A stretch of DNA of 64,000 bases from assembly GCA_030744625.1 (NCBI GenBank), contig JASLQF010000041.1, forward strand, positions 1 through 64,000, in the 5' to 3' direction. The notes beneath the pieces are model-generated. The model was not told the DNA's origin. It worked only from the letters and a program-made list of their open reading frames with translations, and ran no database searches. Numbering within the stretch: position 1 is the first letter of the stretch; every line of letters starts with the position of its first letter. The stretch is from Rhodospirillales bacterium. GTDB lineage: Bacteria; Pseudomonadota; Alphaproteobacteria; Rhodospirillales; JASLQF01. Of the stretch, positions 33,753 through 36,278 are shown in pieces. Position numbers and translations under genes: made by a program.

Positions 33753-34478
33753 ATGCCGGAGTACGCTGACGCGCCACCCCCCGTCCTCATCGTCGGCGGC
33801 GGTATCGGCGGTCTGGCCGCCGCCTTGGCGTTTTCTCGCAAGGGCATCGCGTCGCTGGTGCTCGAACAAAGCGCCGAGTTTGGGGAGATCGGGGCCGGCA
33901 TTCAGCTCGGCCCCAACGTTTTCCGCATGTTCGAGCGTCTCGGCATCACCGAGCAGGCAAGTGCCACCGCCGTCTTCGTCAAGCACCTCATCATGATGGA
34001 CAGCCTGAGCGGCGACGAGGTCACGCGGGTGCCGCTCGACGACGCCTTCCGCGAACGCTTCCAATACCCCTACGCGGTGATCCACCGGGCCGATCTCCAC
34101 GGCGCCCTTTTCGCGGCGTGCCAAGAGTCCGACCTGATCCGCCTGGAGACCTCGCGATCGGTCAGCGGTTTCGAGGAAACCGGCGATGGCATTTCGGTGA
34201 GGACCGAGGACGGCGCCACCTTCGCCGGCGGCGCGCTGATCGGCGCCGACGGATTGTGGTCCACGGTGCGCTCCCGGATGTTCGACGAGGGCCCACCCAT
34301 AACGTCGGGGCACATCGCCTATCGCGCCGTTTTGCCGATCGACGAGGTTCCCGAGGACATGCGCTGGGACGCCGCGACGCTGTGGGCGGGGCCGCGGACG
34401 CATCTCGTCCATTACCCGCTGCGCAACTGGAAACTTTTCAATTTGGTCGCCGTGTTTCACAGCGACAAGAACGTCGAG
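33753..34478 (+). pseudogene. FAD-dependent aromatic monooxygenase (3-hydroxybenzoate 6-hydroxylase/salicylate hydroxylase-like), 3' truncated
   Basis: About 241 aa of a normally ~400-aa enzyme. The FAD dinucleotide motif VLIVGGGIGGLAAALAFSRKG, the GAGIQLGPN loop, VIHRADLHGALF and the GADGLWSTVR motif are intact. Reading stays normal through LFNLVAVFHSDKNVE, where family members continue with the second FAD motif (GDAAHP). Instead, from about 34478 the frame enters the 3' end of an unrelated minus-strand gene and yields Ser/Arg-rich nonsense to 34778. The GDAAHP region is absent from the window. An inactive remnant left by a deletion or inversion; an assembly join is the alternative. Confidence 0.75.
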
Positions 34479-35104
34479 AAACCGGGAGTCGTGAACGCAG
34501 CCGCGTTGTCCTCGGACCACAAATTCCTGACATCGTCGTCTTCCATGATCCTCTTGCGGAAGGCGTCCGGGTCGCGAAAGACTCGAGGGTATTGTTCAGC
34601 GGCCGTCTTCAGTTCGAATGTTCCCCGTTCGGCCCAATACATGGGCAGATCGACGGGGTGGACGTTCCATATATCCTCGGCGTCCAGCATGGCGATTTTG
34701 AACTTCGATCCCCGTTCGATTTCGTCGCCGAGGACGGACGCCGCGGTGCCATCGTCGGAATCCCATATCAGCCCGTAGTTTCGCCGCAGCCGCCATTGGT
34801 GAACCTCGTAGCGCGACTTGGGCATTACATAGAGTCCGTCCGCGATCCCCGCGCCGTAACTACAAAAGATGTCGCCGGCGCTGGTGTAGCAGAAGGACAC
34901 GTTGGCGTAGGGTTTGCCATCGTAGATGGAAAGGTGTCGGGAGTCCGACATCGCCCAAAAGTGCCGGTCCTTGATGACCACATGAGGCAGGTCGTACGTC
35001 TCGCTGTGCCGGGGATCGTTACTGGGGATGGCGGGATCGGGAACCATGAACGTCCTCAGGGAATGGCCGTCGAGGACCTTACGGATTATTTCCTCATTCT
35101 CCAT
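34457..35104 (-). CDS. Hypothetical protein, orphan, possibly 3' altered
   Basis: 215 aa, not recognised. ATG 35104 has GGGAGGG 7 bp upstream. The protein is soluble, rich in Asp/Tyr/Trp (VIKDRHFWAMSDSRHLSIYD, then YEVHQWRLRRNYGLIWDSDD), with no signal or membrane segment. GC is visibly lower than in neighbours, which suggests acquisition. The last residues (GFSTFLSL) are read from the antisense of the truncated monooxygenase gene, so the native C-terminus may be lost at the junction near 34478. It lies downstream of the broken VOC gene on the same strand, with a 129-bp gap. Confidence 0.55.
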   Translation of the reverse strand: MENEEIIRKVLDGHSLRTFMVPDPAIPSNDPRHSETYDLPHVVIKDRHFWAMSDSRHLSIYDGKPYANVSFCYTSAGDIFCSYGAGIADGLYVMPKSRYEVHQWRLRRNYGLIWDSDDGTAASVLGDEIERGSKFKIAMLDAEDIWNVHPVDLPMYWAERGTFELKTAAEQYPRVFRDPDAFRKRIMEDDDVRNLWSEDNAAAFTTPGFSTFLSL

Positions 35105-35233
35105 CACGCGACCCTCCCCGGAAGACACATCGCCGATCCACCTGGACCTCGAATACACTGAACCTAGGGCAAAACGGGAGTCTCATTGGGGTGTTCGAGC
35201 TAGAATTCCAGCGTGTCCCGAAGGATTTGCTGT

Positions 35234-36278
35234 CTAACTCCGCATCCACGCACCACCCCAGAGATTGAGCGTGCGTTCCTCGTGCGCCCATTGGCGCGGC
35301 GGCATGTGGCGGTGCATGAGTTCGATTTCGGCCGATATCTCAACCTTGTTGCCGTCCGGGTCCTCGACCATGATGAACAGGTTGTTATTACCACTTCCCC
35401 GCTATCCCGCGCCCCCCTTCATTCTGTCCCTCGAAATTAATTCTGTCCCTCGCGGCGAGGGACAGGGGTTTTTGCTATGTTCGAGGGACAAGATGACGCG
35501 AAATGGCCGGACATGGCGGGACAAGTCCAGTTTTCGAGGGACAAGGTGGCGGAACTCTGCGGTTTTAACCTATCAGGTTGTTGCCCGGCCCATGGCGTCC
35601 CGGACCCCAGAATATGGGCACCTCCAGAGCCGCGAAGTGGTCCGCCCAGTCGCGGATGTCATTCCAGTCCCGGGCCTCATAGGCGTGGTGGTCGGGGCGC
35701 GACTCGGGGGCGCGGAACACGGCGAAGCTGTGGTGCTCGGGGTCGGAGCGCAGGAAACACGCGGTAACCTCGCCGCCCTCGTCAAGCACCCGGTCCGACA
35801 CCACGAAGCCCAGCGCGTCGGCGTAGAACGCCGTCATCGGGCCGATCCGCGTGCTGGCGACGACCACGTGCTGGAGCCGCCCGGCCAGCCGGTCGACGCG
35901 GCTAAGCACCTCGGCGGGCTCCGCCGCCACGCCGAAGACGACGCCCCGGCCGTCCGGATCATGCACCATGAAGGCGTCCTCGGCGAACAGCGGCGTCGGC
36001 GAGGGCGCCAGGTTGAGCCCGCCGGCCCGGACCTGATCGCGGAAGTCGTCAAGGCTCCCGGTGTTTTCCAGGGCGAAGGCGGAAAACGCCAGTTCCGTCT
36101 CGCCGCCGCCGATGAGAAGGCGGCGCTCGCCGCCGGCCATCAGCCACAGGCCGTCGCCGAGTTCCCGTGGCTCCATGCCCAGACAATCGCGATAGAACGT
36201 CACCATCGCCTCGGGCTGTTTCGAATCGTATCGAAGGTGATGCAGCCGCGCCGGCCACGGCCCGGTCCACTGGCTCAT
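35234..36278 (-). pseudogene. VOC-family extradiol dioxygenase-like gene split by an insertion
   Basis: The 5' part (36278 to about 35574) encodes two VOC modules: MSQWTGPWPARLHHLRYDSK, LQHVVVASTRIGPMTAFYAD and HHSFAVFRAPESRPDHHAYE, ending GPGRHGPGNNL. The 3' part (from 35386 to the stop at 35234) continues FIMVEDPDGNKVEISAE, then NLWGGAWMRS. Between them lies a 187-bp insert flanked by the 9-bp direct repeat CAGGTTGTT. Removing insert plus one repeat (196 bp) restores one 282-codon frame with the canonical PGNNLF-VEDPDGN join. As it stands, translation ends 3 codons into the insert (LIG-stop). GGGAGG precedes ATG 36278. Confidence 0.85.
35387..35573. mobile_element. 187-bp non-autonomous insertion with TGTCCCTCG repeats
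   Basis: Bounded by the 9-bp direct repeats at 35378-35386 and 35574-35582. It contains five copies of TGTCCCTCG: two direct (35425-35433, 35444-35452) and three inverted (35456-35464, 35482-35490, 35535-35543). Copies two and three form a hairpin with 10-bp arms at 35443-35465. There are no open reading frames and no perfect terminal inverted repeats. Such hairpins with 'TGTCCC' arms recall REP-type elements mobilised in trans by RAYT (IS200-like) transposases; that link is an inference. Confidence 0.7.

Follow-up and report, generated by a model that had tools for sequence, protein, structure and literature searches.

An orphan insert of 187 bp, flanked by a 9-bp target-site duplication, in a VOC/extradiol dioxygenase-like gene of a Rhodospirillales bacterium

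What kind of DNA divides an extradiol dioxygenase-like gene into two parts with a perfect 9-bp repeat on either side, and how did it get there? The question is raised by a stretch of 64,000 nt from a Rhodospirillales draft genome (hereafter, the window), in which an initial annotation, made from the letters alone, had described a VOC dioxygenase gene split by a recent, transposition-like insertion. We have compared this locus with intact homologues, searched for relatives of the inserted DNA and for enzymes that might have moved it, and weighed the ways in which it may have arrived.

A dioxygenase-like gene interrupted at a duplicated site

The interrupted gene lies on the minus strand, and its parts are arranged as follows (all coordinates are those of the window unless a contig is named):

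35574-36278, minus strand: 5' part of the VOC / type I extradiol dioxygenase-like gene; 235 codons (MSQWTG...GPGNNL), then I, G and a stop in the insert
35574-35582: first copy of the target site, CAGGTTGTT; codons NNL on the minus strand
35387-35573: insert, 187 bp; 55% G+C (window, 66%), non-coding, single copy, no relatives found
35378-35386: second, duplicated copy of the target site, CAGGTTGTT
35234-35377, minus strand: 3' part of the split gene, FIMVEDPDGNKVEISAE...WMRS-stop; severed from the start and carrying the predicted metal ligand E248

By direct reading, both copies of CAGGTTGTT are perfect, as had been claimed; they start 196 bp apart, with 187 bp between them, and on the minus strand the site reads AAC AAC CTG, giving the in-frame codons N-N-L. 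The interrupted frame opens with the ATG at 36278, passes through GPGNNL into the two insert codons for I and G, and ends at a TAA at 35565-35567. The interval 36278-35234 measures 1045 bp, and taking out 196 bp leaves 849 bp, or 283 codons with the stop counted (282 aa), whereby the frame is restored, in agreement with the earlier arithmetic, and the two-domain VOC/extradiol-dioxygenase gene is whole again.

Homologues were sought in 100 genomes, the window's own and 99 more from its order, with same-family genomes absent from those drawn. Two of the others, both from other families of the order (L090 and L091), carry intact full-length homologues in 291-aa open frames, with 52% and 49% identity, and the joined protein aligns with them from end to end, without a gap at the junction between GNNL and F. 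Because the homologues run over this junction gap-free, the empty site can be taken as exact and the 9-bp repeat as a real duplication. The same 187 bp within an intact, longer gene of a relative would have spoken against an insertion; the opposite is seen, in homologues that do not have the insert. On plasmids, too, homologues are common, with 37-44% identity and at least 96% of the query covered; the majority bear the annotation 'VOC family protein'.

The repeat also stands out by count. CAGGTTGTT is the sole 9-mer repeated at a distance of 196 in the 64-kb window, where the other distances sampled give a mean of 1.4 per 64 kb (~2e-5 per position), and the chance of a 9-mer repeat falling within a few bases of the homologue-defined break is roughly 1e-4 to 3e-4. 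On these comparisons, we read the repeat as a true target-site duplication made on insertion, not a chance repeat; sequence and homologues agree on a gene split by a 187-bp insert with such a duplication. The perfect repeat and an open frame with no other lesion make a recent, if undated, insertion plausible.

The identity of the interrupted enzyme is clearest in the joined protein, which matches the Pfam Glyoxalase profile (PF00903) with 95.9 bits over its full length (1-121 of 121), as befits a VOC / type I extradiol dioxygenase, while the 5' part reaches 77.9 bits over positions 1-105 of 121. Its closest solved structure is 3b59 (1.4e-22), named a glyoxalase/bleomycin resistance protein/dioxygenase, and another near structure is catechol 2,3-dioxygenase, 1mpy (1.8e-11). 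In the joined protein, H137, H197, and E248 are invariant among the homologues and match, in position and spacing, the 2-His-1-Glu iron ligands of catechol 2,3-dioxygenase, although where the second His falls in the alignment with 1mpy hangs on one gap. The main product of the interrupted gene has 237 residues (235 native and two foreign), is missing the C-terminal 47, and does not hold the complete ligand set. It is expected to be inactive because E248, a predicted Fe(II) ligand, sits in the detached 3' part; judged from sequence, the gene is probably dead.

A separate lesion lies close by. At ~34453-34467, ~0.9 kb from the insert, an abrupt junction truncates two convergent genes together. 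One is a flavin hydroxylase gene (33753-34778, a 341-residue frame) whose homology stops at about residue 238 and whose match to 4bjy, a 424-residue probable salicylate monooxygenase, extends only to chain residue 234. The other, a minus-strand gene at 34457-35158, is a paralogue of one at C14:11678-12334 in the same genome (88% identity in DNA, 80% in protein), without the last ~30 residues; the duplicated stretch proper pairs window 34468-35119 with G000:C14:11683-12332 (L104) over 652 bp at 88% identity. The protein encoded by this stretch is uncharacterised and has no Pfam match; another two genomes of the order have weak homologues, and plasmids yielded none. The junction at ~34467 is likely a deletion between the two convergent genes, with misassembly as the alternative, and the area around the split dioxygenase appears to be decaying as a whole.

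A repeated, folding insert without known relatives

The longest frame within the insert is short and no recognisable protein is encoded, in support of the earlier claim that it has no transposase of its own. TGTCCCTCG is present in five exact copies, both strands counted, within a strong fold-back, against a maximum of two copies of any 9-mer in 500 shuffles of the insert. A longer unit of ~19 bp (CGYCAYCTTGTCCCTCGAA) is repeated in direct orientation on the left side and in inverted orientation on the right, and the interior is laid out as follows:

35398-35520: long imperfect fold-back, with the repeats nested inside
35419-35452, plus strand: two direct copies of TTMATTCTGTCCCTCG, 19 bp apart (repeat family D4)
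35441-35473, plus strand: terminator-like hairpin with a T run, a consensus match only (two found, 1.2 expected)
35480-35551, minus strand: two inverted copies of the 19-bp form CGYCAYCTTGTCCCTCGAA, 53 bp apart (families D2 and D3; inverted repeats I1 and I2)
35518-35525: degenerate third copy, GGGACAAG, between the two inverted CGYCAYCTTGTCCCTCGAA copies

Folding of the whole insert gives z-scores of -3.65 (plus strand) and -4.25 (minus strand) as RNA and of -2.57 as DNA (plus strand), a strength that follows in part from its own inverted repeats; matches such as the terminator-like hairpin are expected by chance. The TGTCCCTCGAA repeats lie ~30-38 bp in from the ends of the insert. No end-aligned terminal inverted repeats were found: the 30-bp ends score 9.0 against a shuffle mean of 9.7, with 608 of 1000 shuffles scoring at least as high as the insert.

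The genome search for further copies that the initial annotation had proposed found 35387-35573 in its own place and nowhere else. Three partly overlapping samples, of 100 relatives, 317 genomes from the order, and 385 from the class, were searched with the insert by BLAST and gave no convincing match, the hits being ~16-40 bases long and, where viewed in context, resembling G+C-rich coding sequence; a search of plasmids and phages in distant mode found no relatives. In Rfam, no family came near its threshold and no known structured RNA or group II intron was matched, the sole two matches, each far short of its gathering score, being whalefall-1 (16.4 bits against a cut-off of 37) and mir-3121 (15.6 against 108). 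When 84,980 species genomes were scanned for motif pairs, 33 loci came up, where ~26 are estimated by chance; six of these have at least two copies of TGTCCCTCG, and the five that were read out are local repeats unrelated to the insert. Four motif-pair scans of viral contigs yielded four loci, from one pattern alone and none related, and a covariance model of the fold-back, run on 372 genomes of the class, had the insert itself as its sole match. A literature search for the insert motif returned no mobile-DNA paper; by title, the papers concern animals and cell culture and presumably contain primer sequences. With one copy in the genome, no relatives in these searches, and no terminal inverted repeats, the word 'element', by which the insert had been described, claims more than was found.

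As a side observation, TGTCCCTCGAA-like units spaced by 18-23 bp occur at L073:7600-7700, L068:5645-5685, L061:7249-7296, and L052:2050-2085, in unrelated bacteria (Porticoccaceae, Opitutaceae, Rhodococcus, and Syntrophaceae). The second copies at these loci exceed chance, and no common element is seen among them.

Among known systems, MITEAba12 with ISAba12 is the nearest documented parallel. MITEAba12, 113 bp long, disrupts hns, where it is accompanied by a 9-bp duplication, and is ascribed to ISAba12 acting in trans (PMC6382973); the insert is likewise short, non-coding, and gene-disrupting, is flanked by a 9-bp duplication, and brings no transposase. MITEAba12, however, exists in many copies and has 16-bp terminal inverted repeats in common with a co-resident IS (PMC6382973), neither of which was found for the insert. 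The label of MITE is not justified, with terminal repeats, multiple copies, and a parent IS with matching ends all missing, whereas small size, the lack of coding capacity and of a transposase, and the perfect target-site duplication are present; most likely, the insert works like a MITE insertion. Palindromic non-coding DNA is also the substance of REPs, CGTC-tagged repeats, and Rickettsia palindromic elements, and CGTC palindromic repeats, commonest in Alphaproteobacteria, have no dedicated transposase (PMC3733652). A CGTC stands before one hairpin arm of the insert, but REPs are 20-40 bp long and high-copy by definition (PMC3733652), and a single copy of 187 bp fits neither REP nor CGTC repeats in size or number.

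How the insert may have arrived

We think it probable that a transposase cutting with a 9-bp stagger put non-autonomous DNA of 187 bp into an extradiol-dioxygenase-like gene that was intact until then. Such an enzyme would open the target by a staggered cut, the 187-bp donor would be joined by strand transfer, and repair of the two remaining single-strand gaps would leave CAGGTTGTT duplicated. A DDE-type transposase, of the kind that generates 9-bp duplications, may have acted in trans, its source element lying outside this incomplete assembly or having been lost since. Transposition is favoured by the exact 9-bp flanking repeat at the homologue-defined junction; the gap-free alignment over the join and the gain in Pfam score on joining suggest the same, as do an insert composition unlike the window average, with no recognisable protein, and internal repeats and a fold-back above shuffled controls. 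Against it stand the missing terminal inverted repeats, the lack of a second copy or of any relative in the sampled genomes, plasmids, and phages, and the lack of a matching transposase among the families searched, in an assembly that is ~88% complete.

Those families were DDE_Tnp_1, rve, and Transposase_mut. The DDE_Tnp_1 search gave one partial gene at a contig start (G000:C20:1-660, L107), which in our reading is IS5-type; its visible end is unlike the ends of the insert, and it probably belongs to an IS that broke the assembly. The rve search gave one domain fragment at a contig end, with ends unrelated to the insert, and no Transposase_mut was found in the genome. The assembly comprises 69 contigs, with 87.8% completeness and 4.2% contamination, and incomplete draft assemblies of this kind often lack repeated elements.

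The inward-arranged TGTCCCTCGAA repeats may be protein-binding sites of the sort found in multi-site transposon ends, an idea that is weak because they sit ~30-38 bp inside the insert ends. The ends of Tn7, Mu, Tn402, and IS21-type elements similarly present ~20-bp repeats inward from both sides, but at or very near their tips and typically with duplications of 4-8 bp, whereas the insert has its repeats 30-38 bp in from the ends and a duplication of 9 bp. The repeats as the tips of an IS21/Mu-like element were rejected on the ground of that distance from the duplication. That the insert represents, as the first member seen, a new family of small mobile elements, without terminal inverted repeats but with inward internal TGTCCCTCGAA repeats and 9-bp duplications and moved by a transposase of another source, we consider distinctly unlikely.

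The main rival to transposition is that stray DNA was captured while a double-strand break with 9-nt overhangs was being repaired; fill-in and end joining would then duplicate the 9 bp, and neither a transposase nor a mobile element would be needed. A single-copy insert for which no terminal repeats, relatives, or parent transposase were found agrees with such capture, and we nonetheless consider it unlikely: an exact 9-bp duplication with both junctions free of loss or addition usually results from transposition, end joining tends to trim or add bases, and an interior so full of repeats and so prone to fold would be odd in random filler. Very improbable, in our judgement, is an artefact of assembly or binning; although the genome is metagenome-derived, with the fragmentation, completeness, and contamination given above, and a second abrupt junction lies 0.9 kb off at ~34467, a false join would not keep the gene halves in order, restorable in frame, and flanked by a perfect 9-bp duplication. 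The least credible reading is a cassette-type insertion by a tyrosine recombinase at a site of the integron or Xer type, with the repeat as the core of recombination. It would accord with the fold-back of single-stranded DNA and the short inverted motif pairs, but no Rfam match is near threshold, inspection by eye finds no paired GTTRRRY / RYYYAAC core sites at the junctions, and a 9-bp core adjoining no inverted arms would be atypical.

What the insertion means for the bacterium

The insertion event is in itself ordinary, and its sole notable point is the orphan status of the insert. It provides a clean case of probable gene inactivation by a tiny insertion, with the exact empty site known, in a bacterium represented by a draft genome. 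If copies appear in related strains, the internal repeats together with the 9-bp duplication could identify the transposase responsible; at present, the insertion mainly documents the decay of one aromatic-degradation gene.
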